Source of the DNA: an uncultured Oscillospiraceae bacterium | GTDB taxonomy: Bacteria; Bacillota; Clostridia; Oscillospirales; Oscillospiraceae | Length of the DNA: 64,000 bases | Assembly: GCA_947627735.1 (NCBI GenBank) | Contig: CANQXG010000005.1 | Location: 1 to 64,000 of the forward strand | Direction of reading: 5' to 3' | Shown here: positions 32,660 through 53,726 of the stretch, in pieces | Position numbering within the stretch: position 1 is the first letter of the stretch | Layout: every line of letters starts with the position of its first letter | Translations under genes and position numbers: made by a program | Notes under the pieces: model-generated | The model's database searches: none | Told to the model about the DNA's origin: nothing | The model's input: the letters and a program-made list of their open reading frames with translations, nothing else

Positions 32660-32712
32660 TTGAGAACGGACCCCCGTTTTGTGTAGAATGGGACCACTAC
32701 ACGAAACGGGGG
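32660..32712 (+). promoter_or_regulatory. Recombinase promoter overlapped by a 16-bp inverted repeat
   Basis: TTGAGA (32660-32665) and TAGAAT (32684-32689) are separated by 18 bases on the plus strand, with predicted start near 32696. Arms 32671-32686 and 32697-32712 form a 16-bp inverted repeat with one mismatch and a 10-base loop, spanning spacer, part of the -10 and the transcript start. The 3' arm contains GGGGG, the likely ribosome-binding site of the recombinase, 7 bases before ATG 32720. It could be an operator for autorepression, an mRNA hairpin that hides the ribosome-binding site, or both. Confidence 0.6.
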
Positions 32713-32719
32713 TGTTTTT

Positions 32720-33559
32720 ATGGGCAAGATCACGGAGGAGCGGATCGGGGCGTTTGCCCGGCACATGGGAGAGGACGAGCGGGCGGAGGGCACCGTCGAG
32801 GCGTACCTGCGGAGCGTCCGCGGGTTCGCCGCATGGCTGGGCGGTCGGGAGGTCACTAAGGACTTGGCGGTAGCGTGGAAGGAGCAGCTGCTCACACAGA
32901 ACTATGCCCCGGCGACGGTGAACGCCAAGCTGGCGGCGGTGAATGCGTTTTTCAAGTTCTGCGGCTGGCAGGACTGCCGCGTCAAGGCCCTGCGGCTCCA
33001 GCGGCGGGCCTTCCGGGACCCGGGCCGGGAGCTGACCAAGGCCGAGTATGAAAAGCTGGTGACCGCCGCGAAGGACAGCGGAAAATCGCGCCTGGCGCTG
33101 CTCATGGAGACCATCTGCGGCACGGGCATCCGGGTGTCGGAAGTGCGGTACATAACGGTGGAGGCGGCACAGGCCGGTCGGGCGGAGATCGCCCTGAAGG
33201 GGAAAATACGGACCATCATGCTGCCGGGGAAGCTGTGCCGGAAGCTCATAAAATACGCACGGAAAAACAAAATCGCCTCCGGTGAGATCTTCCTCACCAG
33301 AAGCGGAAAAGGTCTGAGCCGGCGGCAGATATGGGCGGAGATGAAGGCGGTTTGCGCGCAGGCGGGCGTGGAGCCGGGGAAGGTGTTTCCCCACAACCTG
33401 CGGCACCTGTTCGCCACGGTGTTTTACCGGGCCTGCCGGGACATCGTGAAGCTGGCGGACGTGCTGGGGCACTCATCCATCAACACGACGCGTATCTACC
33501 TCATCACCACCGGCATGGAGCACGCCCGGACCCTGGACCGGCTGGGATTGGTCAGTTAG
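32720..33559 (+). CDS. Tyrosine recombinase (catalytically complete), probable promoter invertase
   Basis: A 279-residue XerC/D-like recombinase. The N-terminal core-binding domain (about 1-90) contains VEAYLRSVRGFAAWLG. The catalytic domain has the full set: Arg138 (TGIRVSE), Lys160, His225 and Arg228 (HNLRHLF), His251 (LGHSS) and nucleophile Tyr260 (TTRIYL). No phage or transposon genes sit beside it. Its 3' end lies 14 bases from the left arm of an inverted repeat bounding a promoter segment, so it probably inverts that DNA. It is related to the inactive recombinase-like proteins downstream, which share its domain plan and many motifs. Only minor codon-use differences from the flanks are visible. 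Confidence 0.92.
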   Translation: MGKITEERIGAFARHMGEDERAEGTVEAYLRSVRGFAAWLGGREVTKDLAVAWKEQLLTQNYAPATVNAKLAAVNAFFKFCGWQDCRVKALRLQRRAFRDPGRELTKAEYEKLVTAAKDSGKSRLALLMETICGTGIRVSEVRYITVEAAQAGRAEIALKGKIRTIMLPGKLCRKLIKYARKNKIASGEIFLTRSGKGLSRRQIWAEMKAVCAQAGVEPGKVFPHNLRHLFATVFYRACRDIVKLADVLGHSSINTTRIYLITTGMEHARTLDRLGLVS

Positions 33560-33573
33560 CGGGTCAACAACGT

Positions 33574-33584
33574 AATTCTTATTT
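33574..33584 (+). repeat. Left arm of inverted repeat (putative inversion site)
   Basis: AATTCTTATTT, an exact reverse complement of 33814-33824. Weaker matches continue a few bases to both sides. It lies 14 bases after the recombinase stop codon. Confidence 0.7.
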
Positions 33585-33609
33585 AGCCTAAAAGATACCA
33601 CCTTCTGGG

Positions 33610-33638
33610 ATTATACACTACATATAATCTACTTTCAA
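33610..33638 (-). promoter_or_regulatory. Left-facing promoter inside the putative invertible segment
   Basis: On the minus strand, TTGAAA (33633-33638) and a perfect TATAAT (33610-33615) are 17 bases apart. It now fires toward the 3' end of the recombinase gene, giving antisense RNA. Inverting 33574-33824 would move it to about 33760-33788 on the plus strand, about 75 bases before the first gene of the glycan operon. Confidence 0.75.
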
Positions 33639-33691
33639 GAACCAAATCATTACACATTAGGAATAATTAAAAACCGGTAAAAAACGATCAG

Positions 33692-33754
33692 GGCACGAAA
33701 GCAGGGCCGTCGTAAGAACCTTTTTGCGGCGGCCTTGTTTCTCGTGCCTTTTTT
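33692..33754 (+). terminator. Strong terminator inside the putative invertible segment
   Basis: Outer stem GGCACGA (33692-33698) with TCGTGCC (33742-33748), an inner GC-rich stem involving GGCCG and CGGCC, then TTTTTT at 33749-33754. In the present orientation it stops transcripts coming from the recombinase side before the glycan operon. Confidence 0.8.
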
Positions 33755-33813
33755 CTTCCCTTTTGTGTCACCTGGGTCTTTCGACCGCCTCGGAAGAAGA
33801 AAGGAAATAAACA

Positions 33814-33824
33814 AAATAAGAATT
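33814..33824 (+). repeat. Right arm of inverted repeat (putative inversion site)
   Basis: AAATAAGAATT, exact reverse complement of the left arm, 229 bases away from it and 43 bases before the start of the first operon gene. Confidence 0.7.
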
Positions 33825-33867
33825 TTGTCGCGAATGGCGGCTGTCGGCCAGAGAGGGGGTCCGGAAC

Positions 33868-36069
33868 ATGCGGGAGATCGTGGACATGCGGCGGCAGGAG
33901 CTTCCTGTCATGCGCCGCGGACAGGACCCCGGCTTCCCTATGCGGCAGGAGGACATCGACCGCTTCCTGGCAGAGCGGAGCGAACAGAGCCACCGCCCCG
34001 GCACGACCAGGAGGTACCGCAGCGCGCTCACGATGCTGTACGACTGGCTGCCGGAGGACAAGCGCATCCGCGAGGGGTCCGTGGACCAATGGCTGAGCGC
34101 CCTTGCGGCGGAGGGCTACTCCAATAACACGCTGAACCTGTTTGGCGCCGTGTGCGATCTTTGGCTGCGATATGTGGGGGCGGAGAGATACCAGCGGACG
34201 GAGAGGATCGGACCCGGCGAGACCTCCATCCCCGCCGTGAGCCGGGAGGAATATCACCGCCTGCTGGAGGCCGCGAAGGAGCTTCGGGACGAGCGGTCCT
34301 ACCTTCTTATCAAGGTGTTCGCCAATACCGGCGTCACGGCCCGGGAGCTGTCCCTCCTGACGGCGGACGCCGCCCGCGAGGGCTGCATCCTCTCAGGCAA
34401 AAAGACGATCCATCTTCCGGAGGCGCTCCGTAAAGAGCTTTTGAACTATGCCGAGTACAACGGGCATCCTGCCGGCGTGATCTTCCGTTCAAAAAACGGC
34501 GGGGCGCTACAGGCGGCCTGGATCGCAAGGTGCCTGAAGCATGTGAGCCAGCAGGCCGGTCTGGCCGGGGGCAAGGGCACGCCTGCCAGTCTGCGGAAGT
34601 TATATGGGAACACCATGGCGGCGCTGCCGGATGAGCACGCCCTGGATGATCTGCTGGAACAGGAACAGACGTTGTACGGCTGGAAACCGGCCCAGGCGCC
34701 GGACTTAGTGCAGGAACAGCCGCCTGCTGTTCCCCTGCCGGAGCCGGATATCCAGCCCCAGGCCGGGATCACACGGGAGGAATATCTCCGCCTGCTGGAC
34801 ACGGCGAAGCAGCTTGGCCGGGAACAAGCGTATCTTTTGGCGAAGGTGTTCGCCTCCACGGGCGTGTCCGTATCCGAGCTGCCGGCGCTGACGGTGGAGG
34901 CCGTCCGGGCGGGCAGGGTCGCGCTCCCGGACGGGAGCGTCCCATTGGCTCCGGGGATGCAAAACGAGCTTTTGTCCTATGCCGCCCGGAAGAACATCCT
35001 GTCCGGGCCTGTGTTTGCCACCCGCAGCGGACGGCACCTGGACGTGCAGCGTGTATCCAATATGCTGCGTCAGCTGGGCGCGGCGGCGGGCCTGGACCCG
35101 GGAAAGAGCCGTCCCAAAGCCTTGCGGAAGCTGTATTTGAGTGCCCGGAGCGAGGCGGAGATGCGTGCCGCCGGCATGGCGGAGCGGCTCATGAATGAGC
35201 GGGCGGACGCGGAGCAGGCCGCCTTGTCGGGGCCGCAGGGAGCGGAGGACACTTCCCTTCCCTCTCCGGACAATGACCCGGGTTTTCTAATGACCCGCGA
35301 GGCCATTGAGGGGTACATGGCTGATCTGCGCGCCAAGGGGCGTATGCCGGCCTCCCGGCGGTATGGGAGCATCCTGGAGCAACTCTATGAGGACCTGCCG
35401 GAGGACAAGCGCATCCGCAGGGGCACCCTGGCCCAGTGGGTGGAGCTATTGCAGGATAAGGGGTATGCGCCCAATACCATCAACGGCTTTGCCATCGTGG
35501 CGAACGGTTTTCTGGATCATGCGGGCCACCGGGAGTGCCAGCTCTCCAGCCTGCCCAAGCTGGCGGATATCCCCCAGCCGGAGCTGACCCGGAGCGAATA
35601 CCTGCAGCTGCTGCAGGCGGCGAAGCGGCTGGACCGGGAGCGGGAATATCTGCTGGTGAGGCTGTTCGCGTCCTGCGACCTGCCGGTACAGGAGCTGGAC
35701 AAGGTGACGGTGGCGGCGGCAAGAGCCGGGAGCATGACGGTCGATTCCAGCGGCACACGCAGCGTGCTCCATCTACCTGGGAGCCTGTGCCGGGAGCTTT
35801 TGGCCTACGCGGAGCGGCAGGGCATCGGCACGGGACCCATCTTTGTGTCGAACCGGGACAGGGCCATGAGCCGCGCCGCCGTGGTGCAGTCCATCGCGAA
35901 GCTGAGTGACGAGGCGGGGCTGCCCGGCGAGAAGTGCAATCCCCAGTGCCTGCGGCGGCTGTATAAGACCACCCGAGCGGCGGTGGAGGCCAGCTTCGCG
36001 GTCCTGGTGGAGCAGACCATGGACCGGCAGGCGGAGCAGGAACAGCTCGCCGCCGGCTGGGGAGCGTAA
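33868..36069 (+). CDS. Giant recombinase-like protein with three inactive catalytic modules
   Basis: A 733-residue protein built from tyrosine-recombinase parts: core-binding (about 25-105), catalytic-like 1 (120-265), catalytic-like 2 (308-445), core-binding (470-555), catalytic-like 3 (568-715). The segments KVFANTGVTARELS, KVFASTGVSVSELP and RLFASCDLPVQELD align with the active TGIRVSE. The first catalytic Arg is replaced by Thr157, Ser334 and Pro606. The His of HxxR is Ala240, Lys417 and Gln693, while the second Arg stays (243, 420, 696). No GH...Y block with a nucleophile tyrosine remains. It should bind DNA but not cut it. It heads the glycan operon with GAGGGGG before ATG 33868. Confidence 0.85.
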   Translation: MREIVDMRRQELPVMRRGQDPGFPMRQEDIDRFLAERSEQSHRPGTTRRYRSALTMLYDWLPEDKRIREGSVDQWLSALAAEGYSNNTLNLFGAVCDLWLRYVGAERYQRTERIGPGETSIPAVSREEYHRLLEAAKELRDERSYLLIKVFANTGVTARELSLLTADAAREGCILSGKKTIHLPEALRKELLNYAEYNGHPAGVIFRSKNGGALQAAWIARCLKHVSQQAGLAGGKGTPASLRKLYGNTMAALPDEHALDDLLEQEQTLYGWKPAQAPDLVQEQPPAVPLPEPDIQPQAGITREEYLRLLDTAKQLGREQAYLLAKVFASTGVSVSELPALTVEAVRAGRVALPDGSVPLAPGMQNELLSYAARKNILSGPVFATRSGRHLDVQRVSNMLRQLGAAAGLDPGKSRPKALRKLYLSARSEAEMRAAGMAERLMNERADAEQAALSGPQGAEDTSLPSPDNDPGFLMTREAIEGYMADLRAKGRMPASRRYGSILEQLYEDLPEDKRIRRGTLAQWVELLQDKGYAPNTINGFAIVANGFLDHAGHRECQLSSLPKLADIPQPELTRSEYLQLLQAAKRLDREREYLLVRLFASCDLPVQELDKVTVAAARAGSMTVDSSGTRSVLHLPGSLCRELLAYAERQGIGTGPIFVSNRDRAMSRAAVVQSIAKLSDEAGLPGEKCNPQCLRRLYKTTRAAVEASFAVLVEQTMDRQAEQEQLAAGWGA

Positions 36070-36071
36070 GG

Positions 36072-36845
36072 ATGCAGGACATGCCTCAGGGCCTCGGCTT
36101 TCAGATGGGGCGGTCGGATATCGAGGACTGTGTCGGGCGGCTGAAAGCGGACCTCAGCCCCAGTACGGTCGCCCGGTATCGCAGGGCGCTGCTGGCCTTT
36201 TACGACGCCCTGCCGGCGGACAAGCGGGTCCGGGAGGACACGCTGGCCAACTGGGTTGAGAGCATCGCGGACCGGTACTCCGCCGCCCACGTGAACATGC
36301 TCACCAGTGCTTGCAACGCCTTTTTGCGCTACAGAGGCTATGAGAGCTATCAGCTCACCCGCTATATCGGGAAACAGGAGCCGTCCCAAACGGCGCTCAC
36401 CCGGGAGGAATACCTGCGTCTGGTAGCTACGGCGCGGGCGATGGGAAAGCCCCTGGCCTATCTGGCCATGCGGGCCTTTGCCTGCACGGACATGGAGATG
36501 GCGGACTTCCTGGCCCTGACGGTGGAGGCGGTGCGGGATGGGACCACCGCTGTCCGCCTGCCGGACAGCCTGCGGGGGGAGCTTTTGGAGTATGCCCTGC
36601 ACAATGGCGTCCGCGGCGGGCGTATATTCGTGGGCCGGGGCGGAGAGCCGCTGCGGGCGGAAACCGTGCGGCTGCACATCAAGGCGGTGAGCAAGGCGAC
36701 AGGGTTCGGGGCCGGCAAGGCCTGCGTCCGCACGTTGCGGAAGCTGTACGAGCAGACCCGGGCGGAGATAACAGCGCAGACTGTGGAGCGGCTGATGATA
36801 GAACGAGCAGAGCAGGAGCAGACGGAGCATGGGTGGGAGAGCTGA
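36072..36845 (+). CDS. Second recombinase-like protein, inactive catalytic module
   Basis: A 257-residue protein of one core-binding domain (about 12-90) and one catalytic-like domain (about 100-245), the same fold as a module of its upstream neighbour. The segment ACTDMEMADFLALTVEAV aligns with ASTGVSVSELPALTVEAV, placing Glu142 where the first catalytic Arg should be. Arg220 replaces the His of HxxR, Arg223 is kept, and no nucleophile tyrosine is present. It begins 2 bases after the previous stop and ends directly before the first glycosyltransferase, so it is part of the glycan operon. A DNA-binding regulatory role is inferred. Confidence 0.82.
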   Translation: MQDMPQGLGFQMGRSDIEDCVGRLKADLSPSTVARYRRALLAFYDALPADKRVREDTLANWVESIADRYSAAHVNMLTSACNAFLRYRGYESYQLTRYIGKQEPSQTALTREEYLRLVATARAMGKPLAYLAMRAFACTDMEMADFLALTVEAVRDGTTAVRLPDSLRGELLEYALHNGVRGGRIFVGRGGEPLRAETVRLHIKAVSKATGFGAGKACVRTLRKLYEQTRAEITAQTVERLMIERAEQEQTEHGWES

Positions 36846-37943
36846 ATGAGGCGTATATGCTGTCTGTGCGAGAGCTGGACGACCGGCGGGATCGAGTCGT
36901 TCCTCTGCAGCGTACTCATGCAGCTGGACATGGCAGAGCTGGAAGTGGACATCGTGGCGGCCCGGCTGGACGACAGCGTGTTCACGGACAAGCTAAAGGC
37001 TCGCGGCATTCGATTCTATGAGCTGTCCGGCAGCGTGCGCCGGGTGTCTGAAAACCGCCGGCGGTTCCGCGCGCTCCTGGGGGAGCGGCGGTATGATGTG
37101 CTGCACCTGAATGCCTTCCAGGGCCTGTCCCTGGCCTATCTTCGCATCGCAAAGGAGGCGGGCGTGCCGGCGCGCATCGCCCACAGCCACAACGTGGCTC
37201 TGCGCAAGAGCCTGACCCGGCCATTGAAGCTTGCGATACATAACTGGGCGAAGGAGCGGTATACGAAGGACGCCACGGCCCTGTGGGCATGCTCCAAGGA
37301 TGCGGCGGCGTTTTTATTCTCTGCCAAGGTGCTGGATGAACGGGGCTATCAGTTTGTCCCCAATGGGATAGATGTGGAGCGATTCCGGCTCGACCCGGCG
37401 GCGCGGGAAGAAGTGCGCCGGGAGCTGGGGCTGGACGGAAAGTTCGTCATCGGCCACGTGGGGCGGCTGTGCTACCAGAAGAACCAGAGCTTCCTGCTGG
37501 ACGTGCTGGCGGAGGCGGTAAAGGTGCAGCCGGAGGCTGTTCTGCTGCTGGTGGGCGAGGGCGAGGACCAGCCCATGCTGGTGGAAAAGGCCCGGCATCT
37601 GGGCATTGCGGACAGAGTGCTTTTTGCGGGTACTTCGGACCGGATAGAGAGGCTCTACTGGGCCATGGACGTGTTCGCGTTTCCCAGCCTCTTTGAGGGC
37701 TTTGGCATCGCGGTGATCGAGGCCCGTGCGGCGGGGCTGGCGGTGGTGTGCTCGGAGCATGTGCCGGAAGAGGCACGCATCGCCGGGTGCGCGGCGCTGC
37801 CGCTGGAGGCGGTCACCTGGGCGGAAGAGATAACGGAGGCCCGTGACCGGGCGACAGAGGGTGCGGACGTGGTGCGGGATGCCGGATTCGATATCGCGCA
37901 GGTGGCGGAACAGATCAGTACAGATTATAAAGCACCGTTATGA
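36846..37943 (+). CDS. Glycosyltransferase family 4 type
   Basis: A 365-residue GT-B glycosyltransferase. The N-terminal lobe starts RRICCLCESWTTGGIESFL with the glycine-rich acceptor loop; the C-terminal lobe has HVGRLCYQKNQSFLLDVL and the donor-binding FEGFGIAVIEARAAG (E-x7-E type, near residue 285). It adds a sugar to a growing surface glycan using a nucleotide-sugar. The start ATG follows the previous stop with no gap. GC is high, close to the window average. Confidence 0.9.
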   Translation: MRRICCLCESWTTGGIESFLCSVLMQLDMAELEVDIVAARLDDSVFTDKLKARGIRFYELSGSVRRVSENRRRFRALLGERRYDVLHLNAFQGLSLAYLRIAKEAGVPARIAHSHNVALRKSLTRPLKLAIHNWAKERYTKDATALWACSKDAAAFLFSAKVLDERGYQFVPNGIDVERFRLDPAAREEVRRELGLDGKFVIGHVGRLCYQKNQSFLLDVLAEAVKVQPEAVLLLVGEGEDQPMLVEKARHLGIADRVLFAGTSDRIERLYWAMDVFAFPSLFEGFGIAVIEARAAGLAVVCSEHVPEEARIAGCAALPLEAVTWAEEITEARDRATEGADVVRDAGFDIAQVAEQISTDYKAPL

Positions 37944-37953
37944 GAGAACAAGT

Positions 37954-38502
37954 ATGTCGACATCGGAGCATCTGAAAAAGGTCAAGCGCCAGCTGTATAA
38001 AAACCTCATCTCCGCCCACAAGGGCTGGTGGCAGTGGCACAAGGTCGTCAAAGCGGATGGTGTGGGGGGGAACACGGCCGTCATCCTCCTGCCCGGCTGC
38101 GACCGGGAGATCAACCACATGGCGCTGCTGTACCTGGACGAGATGCTCAAAAGCCGGCAATACAAAAACGCCGTGCTCCTGACCCACGACCTGGCAGTGA
38201 AAAAGTGCGCGGGCCTGTTCTCACAAAATATCCTGCGTGTGGTGGACTTCAGCCGGAAGAAAGCGGAGCACCTGATGCAGTTTTACTGCCTGTATGAGTT
38301 CGACAAGCGGTTCATCTGTGCCAGCCTGGACGAACCCAATGGGCGCAACGGCTCGGCGCTCATAGGCAAGAAGGGCACCACCGTGGAGGAGATCTTCGTC
38401 ATCGGGGTATACCGGATGTATCCGTTCACGCGGCCGGAGGCGCCGAAGTACGGTGGAGACGACCCGGATATAAAGAACTTTTTGGAGGACCGGCCTCAAT
38501 GA
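37954..38502 (+). CDS. Conserved-looking hypothetical protein in glycan operon
   Basis: A 182-residue protein, basic at the N-terminus, without signal peptide or membrane helix. Visible segments include GGNTAVILLPGCDREINHMALLYLDEML and AVLLTHDLAVKKC, which suggest a Rossmann-like alpha/beta fold. It overlaps the next gene by 4 bases (ATGA), so it is translated with it. I do not recognise the family; a role in glycan synthesis is inferred from position only. ATG 37954 is the first start after the previous stop. Confidence 0.6.
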   Translation: MSTSEHLKKVKRQLYKNLISAHKGWWQWHKVVKADGVGGNTAVILLPGCDREINHMALLYLDEMLKSRQYKNAVLLTHDLAVKKCAGLFSQNILRVVDFSRKKAEHLMQFYCLYEFDKRFICASLDEPNGRNGSALIGKKGTTVEEIFVIGVYRMYPFTRPEAPKYGGDDPDIKNFLEDRPQ

Positions 38503-40004
38503 ATCCAAAATATATCGTAGTGCAGGCGGGGGGCAAGGGCACGCGCCTGGGCCACCTGACGAGGAATAAGCCCAAGGCCCTGGTGCCCGTCGACAACCTG
38601 CCCATGCTGTTCCACCTGTTCCGCAAGTACCCGGAGAGCCGGTACATCGTCATCGGGGACTACAGGTGCGATGTGCTGGAGCGGTATCTGGCGGCCTTTG
38701 CCGATGTGGAGTATGAGGTGGTGTGTGCCAGCGGTAGCACGGGCACATGCGCCGGCGTGCGGGCGGCCATGGACAGACTGCCGGCGGACACGCCCTTTAT
38801 GCTCATCTGGTCGGACCTGATCCTGCCCAAGGACTTCGATTTGCCGGAAGAGGTGGGCAATTACATCGGCGTGGCGAAGGACTTCCCCTGCCGGTGGAAG
38901 TATGAGAATGGCGCGTTCCAGGAGGAACGGAGCAGTGAGTTCGGCGTGGCGGGGCTGTTCTATTTCAGGGACAAGGGCCTGTTATCCAAAGTTCCCGAAT
39001 CGGGCGAGCTGGTGCGGTGGCTGTCCGGGACGGGAACGCAGTTTGACAGCCTGCCCCTGTATCGGGTGAAGGAGTACGGGCTGCTGTCCGAATACGAAAA
39101 GCTGGACACGGCTAAGTGCCGGCCCTTTAACCGGACGTACATAGAAGACGGTCTGTTCGTGAAGGAACCCATAGATGCCCAGGGAGAGGGCCTGGCCAGG
39201 CGGGAGCGGGCCTGGTACCGGGCGGTGCAGGACCAGCACTTTGAGAATATCCCCAGGATCGCCTGCTACGAGCCTCTGAAGATGGAGCGCATCGACGGCA
39301 AGGCCATCTACGAGTACGAGGGCCTATCCCATGCGGAGAAGGAGAACATCCTGCGGCAGGTCATCGGGTGCCTGAAGTCCGTCCAGGCTCTTGCGTCCGT
39401 CCCGGCGGACCGGGTCAGCTTTGACGACGCCTACATCGGCAAGACGTTCCAGCGGCTGGAGAAGGTTCAGGAGCTGGTACCCTTCGCCAAGGACGAGTAT
39501 GTGACCGTGAACGGGCGGAAGTGCCGGAACGTGTTTTGGCGCCGGGAGGAATTGGAGAAGCAGATCGCGGGATATTTCCCGCCGGAGTTCAGGCTCATTC
39601 ATGGGGACTGCACCTTCTCCAATACGATGCTGCGCTCGGATGGCCGCCCGGTGCTCATAGACCCCCGGGGGTATTTCGGTCACACAGAGCTGTACGGCGA
39701 CCCGGCCTACGACTGGGCCAAGCTCTATTACTCCGTGGTGGGCAACTATGACCAGTTCAACCGCAAGCGGTTCGACCTGACTATCGGGGAACGGGACGTG
39801 ACCCTCACCATCCGGTCCAACGGCTGGGAGGACATGGAGGGCGAGTTCTTCCGTCTGCTGGACGGAGAGGTGACGCCGGAGCAGGTGAAGCTGCTGCACG
39901 CTATCATCTGGCTGAGCCTGACCACCTACGCCTGGGAGGACTACGACTCCATCTGCGGGGCGTTTTACAACGGACTATATCACTTAGAGGAAGCAATGGG
40001 ATGA
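38499..40004 (+). CDS. Fused sugar nucleotidyltransferase and choline/aminoglycoside-type kinase
   Basis: A 501-residue two-domain enzyme. The N-terminal part (about 1-230) is a nucleotidyltransferase: VVQAGGKGTRLGHLTRNKPKAL is its GxGTR-x-PK signature. The C-terminal part (about 240-500) is an APH/ChoK-like kinase with LIHGDCTFSNTML near 366 (HxDxxxxN) and VLIDPRGYFG (metal Asp). Together they could phosphorylate a small alcohol or sugar and then activate it as an NDP or CDP derivative. The isomerase next door suggests a sugar substrate. It overlaps the isomerase start by 4 bases. Confidence 0.82.
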   Translation: MNPKYIVVQAGGKGTRLGHLTRNKPKALVPVDNLPMLFHLFRKYPESRYIVIGDYRCDVLERYLAAFADVEYEVVCASGSTGTCAGVRAAMDRLPADTPFMLIWSDLILPKDFDLPEEVGNYIGVAKDFPCRWKYENGAFQEERSSEFGVAGLFYFRDKGLLSKVPESGELVRWLSGTGTQFDSLPLYRVKEYGLLSEYEKLDTAKCRPFNRTYIEDGLFVKEPIDAQGEGLARRERAWYRAVQDQHFENIPRIACYEPLKMERIDGKAIYEYEGLSHAEKENILRQVIGCLKSVQALASVPADRVSFDDAYIGKTFQRLEKVQELVPFAKDEYVTVNGRKCRNVFWRREELEKQIAGYFPPEFRLIHGDCTFSNTMLRSDGRPVLIDPRGYFGHTELYGDPAYDWAKLYYSVVGNYDQFNRKRFDLTIGERDVTLTIRSNGWEDMEGEFFRLLDGEVTPEQVKLLHAIIWLSLTTYAWEDYDSICGAFYNGLYHLEEAMG

Positions 40005-40585
40005 AGACATATTTCAAGGGCGTACTGAAAACGATACAGCGCGCGGTGGAGTCGCTGGACGGGGACATATTCGAGCAGCTGGTGGACGAGTGCCGGCAGG
40101 TCATAGAAAGCGGGCACAAAGTGATCGTCAGCGGGCTGGGGAAGAACGTGCCGGTGTGCGACAAGTTCGTGGGGACCATGAATTCCCTGGGGCTGCCGGC
40201 CTGCTTTATGAACACCAACAGCGCGGTCCATGGTGACCTAGGTCTGGTGAAACCGGGGGACCTGGTGATCGTGCTGACGAAGAGCGGTGAAACCATAGAG
40301 TCCGTGTACCTGACGAACCTTCTCAAGAAGCGCCGCGCGGACATATGGCTGCTGACGTTCCGGCGGGAGAGCACATTGACCAGGGAGATCCCAAAGCACA
40401 TCATCCTGGACCTGGAGCACGAGGGGGACCCCTGGGACATCGTGCCCAACAACTCCACCACGGTGAACCTGATCATCCTGCAGGGGCTGGCCATCACGCT
40501 GGCGGAGCGGATGGGCGTTCAGCTTCACGACTTCAAGGAGAACCACCCCGGCGGGTACATAGGGGAGCAGCTCAAAAATGAGTGA
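40001..40585 (+). CDS. SIS-domain sugar-phosphate isomerase (KpsF/GutQ-like)
   Basis: A 194-residue SIS isomerase. VHGDLGLVKPGDLVIVLTKSGET (about 76-98) is very close to the arabinose-5-phosphate isomerase signature, and NHPGGYIGEQL near the end matches the NHPGGxLGK tail of KdsD/KpsF. It has no C-terminal CBS domains. It probably interconverts a ketose and aldose phosphate for an unusual glycan sugar. It overlaps both neighbours by 4-8 bases, consistent with coupled translation. Confidence 0.82.
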   Translation: MKTYFKGVLKTIQRAVESLDGDIFEQLVDECRQVIESGHKVIVSGLGKNVPVCDKFVGTMNSLGLPACFMNTNSAVHGDLGLVKPGDLVIVLTKSGETIESVYLTNLLKKRRADIWLLTFRRESTLTREIPKHIILDLEHEGDPWDIVPNNSTTVNLIILQGLAITLAERMGVQLHDFKENHPGGYIGEQLKNE

Positions 40586-40955
40586 GGTCATAACAGTTTC
40601 GCCCCTGGGGAAGACCTGGGTGCTGGACCTGGACGGGACCGTGGTGAAGCACAACGGCTACAAGCTGGACGGCCATGACACCCTGCTGCCGGGGGCGAAG
40701 GACTTCCTCACCCATATCCCGCCGGAGGACATGGTGGTTTTCATCACGTCCAGGACGGAGGAGCAGCGGGCCATGACGGAGGCGTTTCTAAAAGAGAACG
40801 GCATACGCTATGACGCCATCATCTACGGTGCGCCCTACGGGGAGCGGATACTGGTGAACGACCGCAAGCCTTCGGGCCTGGCCACGGCCATAACGGTGAA
40901 TACGGACCGGGACGTGTTCATGGACGCGGTATTCAAAGTTGATGAGCGGCTGTAA
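40578..40955 (+). CDS. HAD-type phosphatase/hydrolase
   Basis: A 125-residue minimal HAD fold protein. VLDLDGTVV (about 15-23) supplies the nucleophile Asp, FITSRTEE the second motif, and VNDRKPSG the acidic loop. Small HAD proteins of this type remove a phosphate from sugar intermediates in glycan loci. Sequence similarity to the C-terminal half of the protein at 46601-47665 is visible. It overlaps the isomerase by 8 bases and the next gene by 14. Confidence 0.82.
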   Translation: MSEVITVSPLGKTWVLDLDGTVVKHNGYKLDGHDTLLPGAKDFLTHIPPEDMVVFITSRTEEQRAMTEAFLKENGIRYDAIIYGAPYGERILVNDRKPSGLATAITVNTDRDVFMDAVFKVDERL

Positions 40956-41976
40956 GGACTGGCTCCGAGCGGTCAAGGGGCGGCTGAAGCGGCTGCCGCT
41001 GATCGTGATACCGGCGGTGTTCGTGCTCCGCATCCTCCGGGGCTGGCGCGCCTACCGGCACATATTGCGGGCCTGTCCGCCGGAGGAGGGCTGGCGGGTC
41101 TGGTTCATGGACTATGACGGCTCCGGCGACACCTATCTGACCTGCGGTTATCTTCAGTCAAGAGGACTACTGGGGCCAAAGGACGCCTTCGCGGGTTCCG
41201 AGGGTCCGTCTATGAAGATCGCCAAACTCTTTGGGTTCGGTCGCTATATTGCTGTGAGGCCAAAGGCTGCGCTGGACGTGCGGCTGATGGAGCGGTTTTA
41301 CGGTCGGCGGCTGGAACTTCTGCCGCTGCTGTATGAGTCGGACCATTTGGAGCATTCAGGAGTCATGCGCCATATGGCGGGCGTTCATGGTATCGACTTC
41401 ATGACCATGTTGAAGATCGGCCTGGAGGCCAACTGCGGCGTACCGTACAGGGAGGGCCTCTGGACCCAGCCGTCGTTCCCTTACGATGAGGGAGAGATAG
41501 AGGCGATATTTGAAGAGCACAAGCTTATCCCCGGCAGGACAGTCCTGCTGGCGCCCTATGCGGGGAAGAGCGAGATGTGGGGCGTCCCGGTGGCATTTTA
41601 CGCAAGGCTTGCGGACGAGCTTCATGCGGCAGGCTTCTGCGTATGTACCAATACAAGCGGCGGGGAAAAAGAGCCGCCGGTGCCCGGGACGAGACCGCTG
41701 CTGGTACCCTACCGGCTGGTGCGGCCCTTCTGTGAGCGGGCCGGGATATTCATCGGCCTGCGGAGCGGATTGTGTGACATCATCTCCGGCGCAAGGTGCC
41801 GCAAGGTCGTATTGTACTCCGACAAGTTCAAGACGGGCGGCCCCTGTACATGGCTGGATTTTTTCTCGCTGGAGAAAATGGGCCTGTGCAGGGCCGTGAC
41901 GGAATCATATATCGACGGCCGAGGCAGCGACCAGGCTGCGTCGGAGATCATACAAAGACTGTTTACAGACCAATAA
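40942..41976 (+). CDS. Putative GT9-like (heptosyltransferase-type) glycosyltransferase
   Basis: A 344-residue protein starting at ATG 40942, inside the end of the HAD gene. After a membrane-proximal hydrophobic stretch (about 18-35), the body looks GT-B. The C-terminal motif GLRSGLCDIISGA resembles the donor-site GxxSGxxH/D segment of heptosyltransferase-like enzymes, and VLLAPYAGKSEMWG is the start of the donor lobe. The downstream gene has the same LRSGLCD block, so they are distant paralogues. Substrate unknown. Confidence 0.6.
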   Translation: MSGCKDWLRAVKGRLKRLPLIVIPAVFVLRILRGWRAYRHILRACPPEEGWRVWFMDYDGSGDTYLTCGYLQSRGLLGPKDAFAGSEGPSMKIAKLFGFGRYIAVRPKAALDVRLMERFYGRRLELLPLLYESDHLEHSGVMRHMAGVHGIDFMTMLKIGLEANCGVPYREGLWTQPSFPYDEGEIEAIFEEHKLIPGRTVLLAPYAGKSEMWGVPVAFYARLADELHAAGFCVCTNTSGGEKEPPVPGTRPLLVPYRLVRPFCERAGIFIGLRSGLCDIISGARCRKVVLYSDKFKTGGPCTWLDFFSLEKMGLCRAVTESYIDGRGSDQAASEIIQRLFTDQ

Positions 41977-41994
41977 GAGAGAAGTGGAAAAGAA

Positions 41995-42984
41995 ATGAAG
42001 AAGGAACCATTGAAGGCGGCGAAGATCGAGCCAAAGACCATAGACCAGTATTACAGCTACTACAGCTATATCTGCGGTAAGTGCAAAAAAGGACAGTATA
42101 ACCTCTTTCTGCACCGGCATCTGGGGGATTCTCTGGTCCTGCTGGGCCTTAAGGATATTTTTGAGGAGAAGTATCAGGCACCCATACATTACCTGATCCA
42201 AGAAAACCAGGAAGTACTGGCCCAAATGTACGGGGTGACGAACTATACCACAGTAGACTTCTCAACGCTCATGGATGAGCCGCATCTGGACTGGGAGTTT
42301 ACACCGCTTGAGATCGATAAATACAGGGAGAACCTCTGTGAACGGATATTCCCGTCTGTCCCGCAGCTGGACATGCCCTTTATCGCGTCGCCTGCCGCGT
42401 GGGTCAAGGAGAGGCTGGGCTGGGATAATTTTGTGGATGGCTGGGCAAAGATGCTTGGCCTGGAGGCGGAGAAGCTCCCGGTGCCAAAGAACATACCTGA
42501 ACTGTCGGATGAACTCTCCGGAAAGCTGGAGGCCATTGGCGCTTTGGACAAGATCGTCCTGCTGGCGCCGGAGGCGCAGTCATTTATGTTCGCGGACAGC
42601 TCCTTCTGGCCGAAATTGGCCCGCAGACTTCAAAAGCAAGGCTATATCGTCGTTACAAATGCGGTGAACGACGCGAACGCGATCGAGGGGACACATAACC
42701 TGAAAATGAGCGTATCCGATCTGATCGCTTTGGGCTATCGGTGCCATTCGATCCACTCGCTCAGAAGCGGGCTGTGTGATTGCCTCGTGGGAAGGCAGGA
42801 TGCGCTGACGGTGTACTATACGCCGGAGATGTTTTACAAGTATCTGTCCCTCAACGCCTGTTTCGAATTGGACAGGCAGGTCAATGAGGTGACCGTTTCG
42901 ACAGTTGCCAAAGAGATCAGGCACCCTTTTGCGGCGTTAAAAAAGCTGAATAAGCTGGAAGCAAAAAAAAAATCAGGCAGCTGA
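41995..42984 (+). CDS. Putative GT9-like glycosyltransferase ending in an A10 tract
   Basis: A 329-residue protein with HRHLGDSLVLLGL near residue 38, matching the xxLGD start of heptosyltransferase-like enzymes, and IHSLRSGLCDCLVG near 262. It ends KKKSGS just after a run of ten A bases (42963-42972). In the next frame the coding potential runs on without a stop into the WavE-like protein, so the pair may be one gene split by a slip in the A run. GC is lower than in the first operon genes. Confidence 0.65.
   Translation: MKKEPLKAAKIEPKTIDQYYSYYSYICGKCKKGQYNLFLHRHLGDSLVLLGLKDIFEEKYQAPIHYLIQENQEVLAQMYGVTNYTTVDFSTLMDEPHLDWEFTPLEIDKYRENLCERIFPSVPQLDMPFIASPAAWVKERLGWDNFVDGWAKMLGLEAEKLPVPKNIPELSDELSGKLEAIGALDKIVLLAPEAQSFMFADSSFWPKLARRLQKQGYIVVTNAVNDANAIEGTHNLKMSVSDLIALGYRCHSIHSLRSGLCDCLVGRQDALTVYYTPEMFYKYLSLNACFELDRQVNEVTVSTVAKEIRHPFAALKKLNKLEAKKKSGS
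42963..42972 (+). repeat. A10 homopolymer linking two reading frames
   Basis: Ten consecutive A bases inside coding sequence. A tract of this length can slip during replication, transcription or translation. One extra A, or a -1 ribosomal shift, would fuse the frame of 41995-42984 to the WavE-like frame. Confidence 0.75.
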
Positions 42985-44081
42985 CTTATCTGCCGATCGA
43001 CAAGCCCATCACGATAAGCGGTGATGAGATATCGGTCGTGGTCCAGGGCGCCGTGGGGGGAGAGGCCGCGCGAAAATGTCTGAACAGCATCAGGAAGCAC
43101 CTGCCGGGGGCGGAGATCATCCTCTCTACCTGGCAGGGTTCGGATATCACCGGGCTGGATTATGATGTTTTGGTGTTGAGCAAGGACCCCGGGGCCAAGT
43201 ATTTCAATACAGGCTATTCCGTTTTGAACAACGGAAACCGTCAGATCGTGTCCAGCAGCGCCGGAATGAAAAAGGCGACGCGGAAATACATCTTGAGATT
43301 CAGAACGGACTTCGTTTTGGAGAGCAACGAATTCCTCCGGTACTGGGATGCGTATCCAAAGCGCCGCGCAGAGTACGCGCTGTTCTCCCACCGGGTGCTC
43401 GCGGATGTGCTCTTCTCCCGGTTCTGCGCTCACACCACCGGCATACCGACGCCGTTTCATATATCTGACTTTTGGATGTTTGGCCTGGCTGACGACGTGA
43501 AGGAGTACTATTGCAGCGCACCGATCCTTAAAGAAAACGAGCTGGGTGAATACGATTTCGTCCATCCGGAGCGCGTCCCGTACCCGGATATGACGTTTAA
43601 GTTTCCATTGGAACAACATTTTTGCTATTCCTATGTAAAGTCAAAAATACCGGAACTTGAACTCAGAGATTGGTCGGACTGGAACAGCACGAATATCGAT
43701 CTGGCAAATAATATCATCTTCAATAATTTTGTCCTTTTGTCGCATGATCAGAGCGGCATTTGGTCGGATAAGCACGCCTGGTCGATCCTGACGGAAGATT
43801 ATGTGCACGGCATCATCAACCACTACTATTTCCAGGACAGATATAAATTCTACTGTGACCCGTCCTATACGCCCAGGAGACTGAGGAAAACGGATGAGAA
43901 TCCTTTTGCCGATATGCTGAGGGTGCTCAGAGAGCCTGTGAAGTTCCTGTATCGCTGCGCCCGCCGGGTATACGATTGGGCGAGAGCGGTGGTCAGCCTG
44001 CTGTACCGCGCTATAAAAAAGAAAACGCTGGCCATCCTGCGCAGCGTCGGACACAAAAGTGTGTTAAAGACTCCGGAATAG
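42972..44081 (+). CDS. WavE-like glycosyltransferase, no independent start
   Basis: About 370 residues of reading frame. The core begins EISVVVQGAVGG and goes on to AEIILSTWQGSDI, NNGNRQIVSSSAGMKKA and ILRFRTDFVLES, the layout of WavE-type surface-glycan transferases. No ATG, GTG or TTG occurs in frame between the A10 tract and GTG 43038, which lies inside the conserved core and has no ribosome-binding site. So the protein is probably made as a fusion with the upstream gene by slippage at 42963-42972, or is switched off in this sequence. Confidence 0.72.
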   Translation: MRQLTYLPIDKPITISGDEISVVVQGAVGGEAARKCLNSIRKHLPGAEIILSTWQGSDITGLDYDVLVLSKDPGAKYFNTGYSVLNNGNRQIVSSSAGMKKATRKYILRFRTDFVLESNEFLRYWDAYPKRRAEYALFSHRVLADVLFSRFCAHTTGIPTPFHISDFWMFGLADDVKEYYCSAPILKENELGEYDFVHPERVPYPDMTFKFPLEQHFCYSYVKSKIPELELRDWSDWNSTNIDLANNIIFNNFVLLSHDQSGIWSDKHAWSILTEDYVHGIINHYYFQDRYKFYCDPSYTPRRLRKTDENPFADMLRVLREPVKFLYRCARRVYDWARAVVSLLYRAIKKKTLAILRSVGHKSVLKTPE

Positions 44082-44148
44082 TGTTATCTGCTCACGAAAG
44101 AAAAAACAGACGCCGAAATTACTGTATGTTGCGGGAGAAAACGCTGAT

Positions 44149-44916
44149 ATGCTGAAAAAACTAAAGCAAAATCAGTTTCTGTTTACCGAGCTGGTGAAGC
44201 GGGATTTTAAGCAGAAGTATAAGCGAACGCTGCTGGGGATGGGCTGGAGCATTCTTTCTCCGCTGCTCCAGCTTTTGGTGATGACCGTCGTCTTTACCCG
44301 GTTCTTCGGCCAGAACACGCCGCACTATATGATCTTTATCTTTTGCGGCACCCTGGTCTTTTCCTTCTTCATCGAAGCGACGAATGGCGGCATGGAGACC
44401 ATCATGGGAAACGCGGGGATCTTCACCAAGGTCAATGTGCCGAAGTATTTGTTTTTATTATCCCGAAATATCCAATCGCTCATCAACTTTGGGCTGATAC
44501 TTATCGTGTTTTTCATCTTTGTCGCGTTTGACGGCATCGCGTTCACATGGAAGTTTATATGTTTGCTGTACCCGATCTGCTGTCTGATCCTGTTCAATAT
44601 CGGCGTCGGCATGATCCTTTCCGCGCTCTTTGTGTTCTTCAGGGACACGCAATATCTTTACGGTATATTTACCCAGCTCCTTGGATATATGTCGGCTGTC
44701 TTTTACAGCATCGATGTGTACAGCGTCAAAGTCCAGTATGCGTTCCTGCTGAACCCGATATATCTCTTTATTCGGTATTTCAGAAAGATCGTCCTGGACG
44801 CCACGATCCCGACGGTCTGGTTCCACCTGCTGATGGCGGCGGATGTGGTCATCGTCCTGGGGCTTGGCTGCTGGATCTATAAGAAATATAATACCAAGTT
44901 TCTGTACTATGTATAG
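44149..44916 (+). CDS. ABC-2 permease for surface glycan export (TagG/Wzm-like)
   Basis: A 255-residue membrane protein with six predicted helices. The N-terminal LVKRDFKQKYKRTLLGMGWSILSPL stretch (about 15-40) is the signature of TagG/Wzm-type polysaccharide exporters. It forms the channel that moves lipid-linked glycan to the cell surface, with the ATPase encoded 12 bases downstream. GGGAG precedes the start. Confidence 0.92.
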   Translation: MLKKLKQNQFLFTELVKRDFKQKYKRTLLGMGWSILSPLLQLLVMTVVFTRFFGQNTPHYMIFIFCGTLVFSFFIEATNGGMETIMGNAGIFTKVNVPKYLFLLSRNIQSLINFGLILIVFFIFVAFDGIAFTWKFICLLYPICCLILFNIGVGMILSALFVFFRDTQYLYGIFTQLLGYMSAVFYSIDVYSVKVQYAFLLNPIYLFIRYFRKIVLDATIPTVWFHLLMAADVVIVLGLGCWIYKKYNTKFLYYV

Positions 44917-44928
44917 CGGGGGCGTTAT

Positions 44929-45771
44929 ATGAGCATTTTGGAAGTCAACAACGTTTCCATCCGTTATATCACCGGGGATTTCCGGGACATTGGCTTTAAG
45001 GAGTATATCCTGCGCCGGATAACAAGGAACTATCACGTACAGGAATTTTGGGCGGACAGGCATATCTCTTTCTCCCTGGAAGAGGGAGAGATGCTTGGCA
45101 TCATCGGGAGCAACGGAGCGGGAAAATCAACTCTTCTCAAAGTCGTGTCCGGCATCATGGAACCTACGGAGGGGTACGTGAGGCGGAAGGGGAACATCGC
45201 GGCGCTTTTGGAGCTGGGCAGCGGCTTTGACGGCGATCTGACCGTAAAAGAAAACACCTATCTGCGGGGGGCCATGCTTGGGTATACCCGCAAATTCATG
45301 GATGAGACCTATGAGAAGATCATTGAATTTGCGGAGCTTGAGGAATTTCAGGACAGGCCGTTCAAACAGCTTTCCTCCGGCATGAAATCCCGCTTGGCGT
45401 TCTCTATAGCGTCCCTGGTCCAGCCGGATATCCTGATACTGGATGAAGTCCTCTCCGTGGGCGACGGCGCCTTCTGTAAAAAGAGCGAGGCAAAGATGCT
45501 GGAGATCATCAACGGCGGGGCGACAACGATCCTGGTGTCGCACTCTCTCGGGCAGGTGCGGGAGCTGTGCACAAAGGTCCTGTGGCTGGAGAGAGGAGAA
45601 CAGATCGCCGTAGGTGACAAGGAAATGATATGCGATCTCTACCAACAGTATTTGGATAAGACGATCACGCTGGAGGAAGCCCGGGAAAAGCTGAACAGCC
45701 GGTCGGTAGGAACGACCGGCTTGGAAGAACGAACAGGAAATGACAAACAGGAAGATAGACATACATCTTAG
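44929..45771 (+). CDS. ABC ATPase for surface glycan export (TagH/Wzt-like)
   Basis: A 280-residue ATPase. Walker A GSNGAGKST near 63, ABC signature SSGMKSRLAF near 146 and Walker B ILILDEVLSVGD near 166 identify the TagH/Wzt family; the signature lacks the usual GGQ, as typical for this family. There is no C-terminal glycan-binding domain, unlike Wzt proteins that recognise a modified chain end. It pairs with the preceding permease. Its end overlaps the next gene by 32 bases. Confidence 0.92.
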   Translation: MSILEVNNVSIRYITGDFRDIGFKEYILRRITRNYHVQEFWADRHISFSLEEGEMLGIIGSNGAGKSTLLKVVSGIMEPTEGYVRRKGNIAALLELGSGFDGDLTVKENTYLRGAMLGYTRKFMDETYEKIIEFAELEEFQDRPFKQLSSGMKSRLAFSIASLVQPDILILDEVLSVGDGAFCKKSEAKMLEIINGGATTILVSHSLGQVRELCTKVLWLERGEQIAVGDKEMICDLYQQYLDKTITLEEAREKLNSRSVGTTGLEERTGNDKQEDRHTS

Positions 45772-46588
45772 CGGACATTCAGGCTGTGAGATAACTATCA
45801 TCGGGACGCCGGAGCATCTGCTTGTGAAAAAGAAGTCGTCGGAGCAAAGCTATAACCAGCGCCTGTATAACCAGTACTTACGGCAAAAAAACTACACATC
45901 AACAATCTTTCGCTGTGCCAATGTCTATCAGTATTCGGAGGACGCCGACGGTCGCACATACTTTACCATGGATTACATCAACGGCAAGACGGTGGCGGAG
46001 GAGATGCGCACGATCGAACTGTACAGGGTCCCGCTCCTGGGCGATAAATTCGCGGCGCTGCTTCCGGATGCGGTCGTGCCAAATCCAGGTGCGGATAACG
46101 TATTCAAAAACAAGATAGCGATACTGGCCGGGAAGATATGCGGAAAAGGGTCCCGCGCGAAGCAGGCTCTTGAGGAACTGAAAAGTTTTGATTGGAGCGC
46201 CGCGTCTGGATCGCCCTGCCACGGCGATCTGACGCTGGAGAATATGATCCTCAGGAACGGCGAGATATATCTGATAGATTTTCTGGATTCCTTTTATGAC
46301 AGCTGGGCCATCGACCTGGCGAAGATACTGCAGGATGCGGACCTGCACTGGCATTACCGGTATGAGGGCGATCTGGAGAACAATCTGAAGATACGCCTCC
46401 ACTGTCTGAAGGATTCCATCGTCGGCGCCATATTGGCCCATGACGATGGAGAGAGATTATACAGCACCGTGTACCACGTACTTCTCCTGAATGTACTTCG
46501 CATCATACCGTACTGCCGGGATGAGATCACAGAGGAATGGATCGAAAGACAGATCGATCACGTTCTGAAAATAATTAAGAATCGATAA
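45740..46588 (+). CDS. APH/ChoK-like kinase
   Basis: A 282-residue kinase-like protein with PCHGDLTLENMIL near residue 157 (HxDxxxxN catalytic loop) and IYLIDFLDSFYD (metal-binding Asp). It resembles aminoglycoside phosphotransferase and choline kinase folds. It likely phosphorylates a small building block, such as choline, ethanolamine or a sugar, for decoration of the glycan. A nucleotidyltransferase gene follows, which would be the next step. The start overlaps the ATPase gene. Confidence 0.75.
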   Translation: MTNRKIDIHLSGHSGCEITIIGTPEHLLVKKKSSEQSYNQRLYNQYLRQKNYTSTIFRCANVYQYSEDADGRTYFTMDYINGKTVAEEMRTIELYRVPLLGDKFAALLPDAVVPNPGADNVFKNKIAILAGKICGKGSRAKQALEELKSFDWSAASGSPCHGDLTLENMILRNGEIYLIDFLDSFYDSWAIDLAKILQDADLHWHYRYEGDLENNLKIRLHCLKDSIVGAILAHDDGERLYSTVYHVLLLNVLRIIPYCRDEITEEWIERQIDHVLKIIKNR

Positions 46589-46600
46589 GGAGACCTGCCT

Positions 46601-47665
46601 ATGAAAACCCTGATCGTTCCCTGTGCGGGGCGGTCGTCCCGCTTCCCGCATATGAAGCCGAAATATCTGCTCACCCATCCGGACGGGACCTTGATGGTGG
46701 AGAAGGCCATAGAGGGCCTGGATATCTCCCAGTTTGACCGCATCGTCATCACGATCCTGCGGGAGCATAGTGTCAAATATGAAGCGGAGCTGATACTCCA
46801 TCAGATATTTGATAAGCTGCCGCAGGTGGAACTCCTTGTGCTCGAACAGGAAACATCCTGTCAGGCGGAAACGGTCTATGAAACGATCATGCGCAAGCAT
46901 ATCACGGGCCGCTTTGTGGTAAAGGATGTAGATAACCGGCTCTTCTTTGCGGAAGACGAGATCGCCCCAAATTGTGTTGCCGGCATCAATGTTGAAACGT
47001 TTGAAAAGGAGATCGGCCGCCTTAGGGAGAAGAGCTTTCTCATCGTGAACGACCAATCGATCATCGTTGATATCATCGAGAAGGTCGTGAAATCGAAATA
47101 TGTCTGCGTCGGGCTGTACAGCTTTGACTCGGCGGAGGTCTACTGCGGCGCCTATGAGAGCCTGCGGGAGGATGCGTTCTGCAGAGGAGAAATATATATC
47201 TCTCACGTCATATCCTATCTCATCGGGACGGGGAAATGTGTGTTCCGCCTCAAAGAAGTGTCGGATTATGATGATTGGGGCACCCGGGATGAGTGGTATC
47301 AGGAACAGGCAAAATACCGCACATATTTTATCGACCTGGACGGTGTGCTCTGCAGAAACCGGGGACGGTATGGGACCAAGAACTGGGGAAACGATATCGA
47401 ACTGCTCGAGGATAATGTAAACGTAGTAAAAAAACTTTCCGATGACGGCGGTCAGATCGTCATTACGACCTGCAGAGATGAAAAATACGCCGGGCAGATC
47501 AGAAGCGTCCTAGAGGCTGCCGGCATCAAGATCCATGGGATCGTTACGAACTGCAATCACGCGCGAAGAGTGCTGATCAATGACTTCGCGGCGACAAACG
47601 CCTATCCGAGCTGTGAGGCGATCAATATACCGAGAAATGGACGCCTTGCGGATTATATCAATTAA
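46601..47665 (+). CDS. Fused nucleotidyltransferase and HAD phosphatase
   Basis: A 354-residue protein. The first part (about 1-230) begins LIVPCAGRSSRFPHMKPKYLL, a nucleotidyltransferase-like GxxSRF...PK motif. The second (about 240-350) is a HAD domain with FIDLDGVLC near 247 and ITTCRDEKY. It may activate a building block made by the kinase upstream, with the HAD domain removing a phosphate. The pairing of kinase plus nucleotidyltransferase is repeated twice in this operon, once as a single fused gene at 38499-40004. Confidence 0.72.
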   Translation: MKTLIVPCAGRSSRFPHMKPKYLLTHPDGTLMVEKAIEGLDISQFDRIVITILREHSVKYEAELILHQIFDKLPQVELLVLEQETSCQAETVYETIMRKHITGRFVVKDVDNRLFFAEDEIAPNCVAGINVETFEKEIGRLREKSFLIVNDQSIIVDIIEKVVKSKYVCVGLYSFDSAEVYCGAYESLREDAFCRGEIYISHVISYLIGTGKCVFRLKEVSDYDDWGTRDEWYQEQAKYRTYFIDLDGVLCRNRGRYGTKNWGNDIELLEDNVNVVKKLSDDGGQIVITTCRDEKYAGQIRSVLEAAGIKIHGIVTNCNHARRVLINDFAATNAYPSCEAINIPRNGRLADYIN

Positions 47666-47698
47666 TAGAAAGATCTAAAAAACTATTGGGAGGAAAAT

Positions 47699-48733: not shown

Positions 48734-48779
48734 GGGGTTTGGGTGAACGGAACTTTTTGGGAGCATGGAAGGACGAGGC

Positions 48780-52011: not shown

Positions 52012-52024
52012 GGAGGAAAGACAG

Positions 52025-53724: not shown

Positions 53725-53726
53725 AT

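Follow-up and report, generated by a model that had tools for sequence, protein, structure and literature searches.

The locus studied here raises the question of whether a short AT-rich segment between a recombinase gene and a long operon is an invertible promoter, and, if so, what such a switch controls. The segment lies in a 64,000-nucleotide stretch of DNA (the window), which is contig C5 of a 2.36-Mb, 72-contig genome assembly. As described in the initial annotation, a perfect 11-bp inverted repeat, formed by AATTCTTATTT (33574-33584) and AAATAAGAATT (33814-33824), encloses 229 bp with a GC content of 42%, versus 61% for the window, and each arm occurs only once in the window. Taken alone, the repeat is modest evidence. 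A repeat of equal length appeared in 1.06% of 5,000 sequences generated from the intergenic region with a first-order Markov model, and perfect inverted repeats of 11 bp or longer, spaced 80 to 600 bp apart, occur 20 times in the window. The case therefore had to rest on relatives of the locus.

Inside the repeat, a TTGAAA-17-TATAAT promoter on the minus strand (33638-33610) matches the consensus at 11 of 12 positions and is directed away from the operon, in the OFF orientation; promoter-like sites numbered 2 in the surrounding 2.5 kb, compared to 0.4 in shuffled sequences. On the plus strand, a long two-part hairpin followed by a T-run (33690-33755) would act as an OFF-state terminator facing the operon. 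Its best 64-nt stretch folds at −44.5 kcal/mol, and a simple terminator scan did not list it. No plus-strand promoter match was found between this terminator and position 33868, and inversion would bring the promoter to 33760-33788, which is 79 bp ahead of the first operon ATG, at 33868. The promoter, the terminator, the missing rightward promoter, and the position after inversion thus all agree with what had been proposed for the locus.

The recombinase itself was also described correctly. The gene at 32720-33559 (plus strand) encodes a 279-amino-acid (aa) XerC/D-like tyrosine recombinase (Phage_integrase, E = 2.2e-25), the proposed invertase, which holds all six catalytic residues R-K-H-R-H-Y and ends 14 bp from the left arm. 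The six residues are complete in 82/82 aligned homologs, the window's recombinase among them and the C19 paralog omitted. Upstream of the gene, a palindrome at 32670-32713 (17-nt arms, 94% complementary) covers its putative −10 element and Shine-Dalgarno sequence, and may be an operator or a hairpin that hides the Shine-Dalgarno sequence. Comparable palindromes were seen by eye before the recombinases of L020 to L025 and were absent in C1 and L026 to L028 as these sequences were cut. One half of the palindrome, ACAAAACGG, is similar to a half-site of the recombination core described below, a likeness that suggests self-regulation of the recombinase.

Four close recombinases (E ≤ 4e-77) are encoded in the source genome: that of the window and those on C1 (92% identical), C19 (50%), and C13 (48%), the last situated at a contig end. 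Directly after the C1 recombinase, an 18-bp perfect inverted repeat (CAAAATAAAGCGTCTGTC) surrounds 244 bp containing a TTGTCA-17-TATTAT promoter directed at the operon. C1 is therefore in the ON orientation and the window locus in the OFF orientation. The C19 locus has imperfect 29-bp arms, and its promoter also reads ON. The insides of the window and C1 elements did not align with each other. We then considered the best 80 of 285 relatives, mostly from Oscillospiraceae assemblies, which together with the window, C1, and C19 made 83 loci. In 7/83, the downstream sequence was too short (26 to 278 bp) and no repeat was found. An inverted repeat scoring at least 10 and starting at most 100 bp from the recombinase stop was present in 60/76 loci, and six further loci of the close clade had the same arms with scores under the cutoff, giving 66/76. 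In an automatic test of the loci with at least 300 bp, a repeat lay within 100 bp after the recombinase stop in 58/74, compared to 5/73 for placements upstream of the recombinase, 3/67 for placements further downstream, and 16/370 for shuffled sequences; the remaining 16/74 loci had no repeat at the expected place. Imperfect arms were seen at the expected places in five more loci (L045, L064, L075, L076, and L088). Genomes G013 and G033 held 14 and 8 recombinase-family matches (E ≤ 1e-60), respectively, counts that suggest many switches per cell.

Comparison with related genomes, which the initial annotation had named as a check, showed that close relatives hold the segment in opposite orientations between collinear flanks. 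For L027 and L028, 252/274 bases of the inside were identical in inverted alignment versus 54/82 in direct alignment, while the flanks aligned directly on both the recombinase side (342/399) and the operon side (587/695). The insides of L047 and L080 (358/388), L023 and L025 (190/271), and L036 and L055 (136/185) were likewise inverted between direct flanks. The inside was also inverted between L051 and L057 (190/225), whose operon sides did not align. The compared assemblies belong to different species, so inversion is shown for the class rather than for the window's own copy. No inverted copy of the window's element was found in 400 family genomes; its own genome excepted, these held only a 45-bp terminator fragment and a 37-bp right-core fragment of the inside, in two genomes. 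Neither junction pattern had a match in viral contigs (0 hits), an unpromising source for one.

The arms of these loci share a 20-bp core, GACAAAAT-N4-ATTTTGTC. Strand exchange by tyrosine recombinases demands an overlap that is identical within a pair of sites and free to vary between pairs. The 4-nt spacer was equal within the pair in 56/57 pairs, and 37 different tetramers occurred overall. Furthermore, L027/L028 and L023/L025 kept their outer half-sites fixed while the inner half-sites traded sides with orientation, which places the crossover within the core; the swap was less clean in L020/L021, where the right outer half differs. In the window, the left core AACGTAAT-TCTT-ATTTAGCC (33569-33588, plus strand) contains the left arm 33574-33584 and the right core GACAAAAT-TCTT-ATTTTGTT (33810-33829, minus strand) contains the right arm 33814-33824, so that the site is larger than the 11-bp repeat first noticed. 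To score these cores, we scanned both strands of the 64 kb with a matrix trained on 100 arms taken from other loci, without the window. The right core ranked first in the window (26.8 bits), and the left core ranked second among distinct sites (10.4 bits), with the next site at 10.2 bits. With a symmetrized matrix, the right core scored 27.2 bits and the left core dropped to third at 8.8 bits, a score reached by three positions in the 64 kb, the left core included. The left core of the window is thus weak, and its outer half-site contributes just 2.0 bits.

A search for promoter-like sites 10 to 90 bp from an arm and directed at that arm, on 132 strands of 66 loci, found one on 45% of the strands, compared to 8.7% in mononucleotide shuffles. 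Orientation could be assigned in 57/66 loci, 44 OFF and 13 ON, so that OFF outnumbers ON roughly threefold in the assemblies; an earlier and looser promoter scan of 60 loci had given 42 OFF, 14 ON, and 4 undecided. The distance from the −10 element to the arm was mostly 41 to 61 bp, longer than the 25 bp of the window and the 26 bp of C1. In the close clade, terminator and promoter lay on opposite strands in 10/10 loci. Nonetheless, a terminator behind the promoter was rejected as a universal rule, since the arrangement is looser over the 57 assigned loci: the terminator was on the forward strand in 20 of the OFF loci, on the reverse strand in 15, and tied or absent in 9, while in the ON loci it was on the reverse strand in 11 and on the forward strand in 2. 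A central two-part hairpin recurs, and its inner stem is conserved in 41 loci (360/410 stem cells pair, several pairs having changed on both sides), a subset chosen by dropping 22 of 63 rows with other hairpins and scored without a shuffle control. Consensus folding of all 63 hairpins gave no common fold for the whole set.

Altogether, comparison among the loci demonstrates, at the level of sequence, the recognition of the site, the occurrence of both orientations in relatives, and the exchange of half-sites. With the ON paralog added, these data support the original proposal, and we are confident, short of certainty, that the element is a tyrosine recombinase-driven invertible promoter that is run by the adjacent recombinase and leaves the operon OFF as assembled. 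We infer that this copy inverts, that its own recombinase acts on it, and that the operon follows its orientation. The weakness of the left core, at 8.8 versus 27.2 bits for the right core, makes a slow or locked switch conceivable. A locked switch, descended from a working inverton whose left core diverged so that this copy stays OFF, is nonetheless unlikely: cores just as weak occur in clade members known from both orientations (3.1/9.3 bits in L027 and 9.0/8.3 bits in L028), the recombinase is intact with a dN/dS of 0.18 against its C1 paralog, and the spacers are still identical. It is far less plausible still that the repeats are operators rather than crossover sites, with the leftward promoter producing an RNA antisense to the recombinase gene and another promoter, located elsewhere, serving the operon. 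The OFF promoter does face the recombinase 3′ end, and promoter-like matches inside the operon, counted on both strands, numbered 18 versus 13.5 in shuffles; however, operators would account neither for segments inverted between collinear flanks in relatives nor for the exchange of half-sites.

The operon behind the switch had been described as a surface-glycan operon, which holds for the genes of 36846-53724 but not for the first two genes, which are dead recombinase repeats. Between 36846 and 53724 (plus strand), Pfam matches include a GT4 glycosyltransferase, a nucleotidyltransferase/kinase, a SIS isomerase, a weak HAD match scoring under its family cutoff, a WavE-like protein, and an ABC-2 exporter with its ATPase, together with an epimerase and a DltD-like protein, both labeled by eye, an MBOAT protein, and an AMP ligase. 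The genes at 40939-41976 and 41995-42984 had no Pfam family match. A binding protein, which we take to be TAXI-type, and a fused TRAP permease (DctM, E = 2.2e-93) follow in the same direction at 53721-56593 (plus strand) and possibly form the operon end. Terminator-like sites in the operon region were no more common than in shuffles, and the stretch from 33868 to about 53.7 or 56.6 kb, an operon defined by gene order, appears to be one transcript.

The first operon gene (33868-36069, plus strand) encodes a 733-aa leader protein made of three catalytically dead tyrosine recombinase domains, and a separate gene (36072-36845, plus strand) encodes a fourth dead domain of 257 aa that is 92% identical in protein to the copy at C1. 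At the DNA level, 36095-36845 is 94.5% identical to the C1 copy, compared to about 75 to 78% for the neighboring leader domains, and this likeness may reflect recent duplication or gene conversion. The leader proteins lack the catalytic set R, K, H-x-x-R, H, and Y of active tyrosine recombinases. In an alignment of 51 dead domains, the H-x-x-R histidine was present in 0 (with 3 gaps), the first arginine in 6, and the lysine in 6. The H and Y columns show gaps in this alignment, as each sequence was trimmed at the end of homology; the loss of the tyrosine rests on full tails, with a GH...Y tail in 0/26 full-length dead rows. Instead, the dead proteins have in common a C-terminal tail whose W is invariant and whose usual form is EQEQL..GW. 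An AlphaFold model of the 257-aa protein (pLDDT 86.9, pTM 0.56) predicts a recombinase-like fold in which the long elements are all helix and a single 35-residue helix forms the end. The best match among solved structures was XerA (5hxy; E = 1.9e-7, TM 0.4), with a TM of 0.5 for lambda integrase; the low TM may reflect domain placement.

In a phylogenetic tree, the dead domains fell on one side of a single branch with 100/100 support (29 versus 27 sequences), the tree tool flagging long branches near C19. For eight loci from six assemblies, some pairs thus being paralogs, dN/dS was 0.18 to 0.38 (median, 0.24; 28 pairs) for the leader, 0.22 to 0.42 (median, 0.29; 28 pairs) for the second dead gene, and 0.07 to 0.39 (median, 0.15; 28 pairs) for the active gene. 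The single branch and the low dN/dS indicate an ancient family that has been maintained, not one in recent decay. We also searched 60 relatives and the source genome with a profile of the dead domains, some named assemblies recurring among these genomes (G026 is the assembly of L023, L024, and L027). Strong matches scored at least 225 bits and all others at most 180 bits, the latter comprising active recombinases and partial dead domains. The 34 strong matches outside the source genome contained no stop codons, and none had the H-x-x-R histidine or the first arginine. For 28/40 strong matches (24 loci), an active recombinase was encoded on the same strand no more than 6.5 kb upstream; nine others were cut by contig ends, one stood behind a broken active gene, and two (G025:C3 and G029:C2) had no recombinase in the 7 kb upstream. 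Counting matches with enough upstream sequence, 29/31 were downstream of an active or, in one case, broken recombinase on the same strand. A dead recombinase was the first gene in 20 of the 63 loci with more than 600 bp after the arm (19 by script, plus L031).

The genes following a dead leader (38/73 scanned) included nucleotidyltransferases (9), glycosyltransferases, ABC-2 transporters (5), LicD proteins (2), and large surface proteins, and those of leaderless loci (29/84 scanned) included SLH (7), Flg_new (7), DUF4379 (6), and SpaA (3) proteins. The cores also differed. At the 17 loci with a dead leader and a glycan-type operon, C1 and the window included and assignment resting partly on gene order, outer half-sites averaged 9.4 bits and inner half-sites −1.6 bits, compared to 10.6 and 10.3 bits at 45 loci without a leader and 11.1 and 7.1 bits at 8 loci where the leader is followed by a surface protein or an unknown gene. 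The asymmetry had a P value of 7e-9 with shared descent ignored, the loci representing roughly five lineages. Bias from hand-placed cores was rejected as its cause: a uniform seed rule for all 70 loci moved only two (L058 and L021), and with it the leader/glycan loci still gave 8.9 bits outer and −1.4 bits inner, leaving the test result unchanged. A strict link between asymmetry and leader is broken by L060 and L099, which have weak inner halves without a leader, L099 being a glycan locus headed by a helicase, and also by the loci where a surface protein follows the leader, whose inner halves are close to normal. These exceptions indicate that the asymmetry tracks glycan loci and mostly, not strictly, the leader.

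The proposed mechanism is as follows. The recombinase encoded at 32720-33559 would pair the two 20-bp cores, and strand exchange at their common TCTT center would invert about 245 bp. As assembled, the promoter would fire leftward and the internal hairpin would stop rightward transcripts, leaving the operon OFF; after inversion, the promoter at 33760-33788 with the hairpin behind it would turn the operon ON. The ON transcript would yield the dead recombinase-like proteins first and the glycan genes next, so that the leader would be made only in the ON state. Our hypothesis is that the leader, probably by binding to the recombinase or to the cores, then modulates either switching or transcription. 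A more specific version, which we offer tentatively and hold as a minority view, is that glycan loci are governed by a pair of active and dead recombinases: the dead product would sit at the diverged inner half-sites or replace subunits of the synapse. Because the inner halves swap on inversion, the ON and OFF states would present different half-site pairs; on this view the ON state would make its own partner and determine how fast, or in which direction, the next flip occurs, within the locus or between the several switches of the genome.

The main rival to control of the switch by the leader is a role in transcription, apart from recombination, in which the leader, like UpxY in the capsule operons of Bacteroides, regulates the long operon. 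The position of the leader as the first gene of long operons fits such a regulator, as does the variety of leaders, since other loci begin with DUF4379 proteins (6/29 proteins) or a helicase (L099); against it, the fold and the origin of the leader are those of a recombinase, and 29/31 strong matches follow an active or broken recombinase. We regard this reading as a serious contender, though it falls short of even chances. Far less can be said for the dead domains being decaying duplicates of the recombinase. Their catalytic residues are lost and L027 carries two copies of them, but a single branch with 100/100 support, dN/dS of 0.18 to 0.42 in 56/56 pairs, 34 further copies without a stop, and the C-terminal tail with its invariant W make decay improbable.

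Among known switches, fimS of Escherichia coli is served by two active recombinases, FimB and FimE, and we know of no dead homolog in its switched transcript. Like the window's element, fimS is a short invertible promoter whose locus also contains recombinase genes (PMC2784873). The Clostridioides difficile RecV/cwpV switch shares the tyrosine recombinase and the OFF-state terminator (PMC2784873) but has its promoter outside the inverted segment, whereas here a promoter-like site lies inside. Bacteroides fragilis Mpi also acts on invertible promoters of surface glycan operons, those of its capsules. However, Mpi is a serine recombinase that serves as one master for many regions (PMC5903667), whereas here the loci have their own tyrosine recombinase. 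The initial annotation called the layout notable for a GC-rich Firmicute; the kind is not new for Firmicutes, since inverton group 139 had already been reported (PMC11892184). That group comprises 33 invertons (32 of them in Clostridia) and has been linked to tyrosine recombinase group 35 (PMC11892184). One member, from Intestinimonas butyriciproducens, shifts orientation between culture passages; its coordinates give arms of 14 bp around an inside of 227 bp. The group, like the window, has an inverton near a tyrosine recombinase that its promoter is not placed to drive (PMC11892184). L029, itself from I. butyriciproducens, has the window-type layout, and geometry and genus agree with group 139. 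On these grounds we take the window's element to be a probable member of the group 139 kind. The accessible sections of that report make no mention of a dead leader, asymmetric cores, or an internal terminator (PMC11892184).

We found no description, in the open-access literature searched, of a dead recombinase leader or of an inactive tyrosine recombinase in phase variation. What looks new is that the first operon genes consist of tandem catalytically dead recombinase domains, of one clade and under purifying selection. Invertons of gut Clostridia have been cataloged from reads, but we came across few accounts of how their switches are built. The core site, the spacer rule, the place of the promoter, and the hairpin, legible from dozens of loci, would permit a scan of single genomes without reads. 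Moreover, dead leaders resemble recombinases to family models, a warning for annotation. If the proposed role of the leader is true, a recombination enzyme, made in the ON state only, has been co-opted to regulate, or to act as a partner in, its own switch, and feedback control of phase variation becomes directly testable through the dead leader.

Several minor features were also recorded. DUF4379 zinc-finger proteins occur early in leaderless switched operons at L029:5725-6861, L035:1828-3006, L036:7169-7903, L055:7177-7908, L078:7189-8328, and L093:7161-8207; that of L029 was listed directly, and the other five were named from 54 to 63% identity to it. The helicase that heads the glycan operon of L099 (1132-3834), behind the same kind of switch, carries six HA domains. 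Finally, at 59325-59610 of the window, a 78-bp tandem repeat is present in 3.7 copies with 98% matches and gives an open repeated frame.
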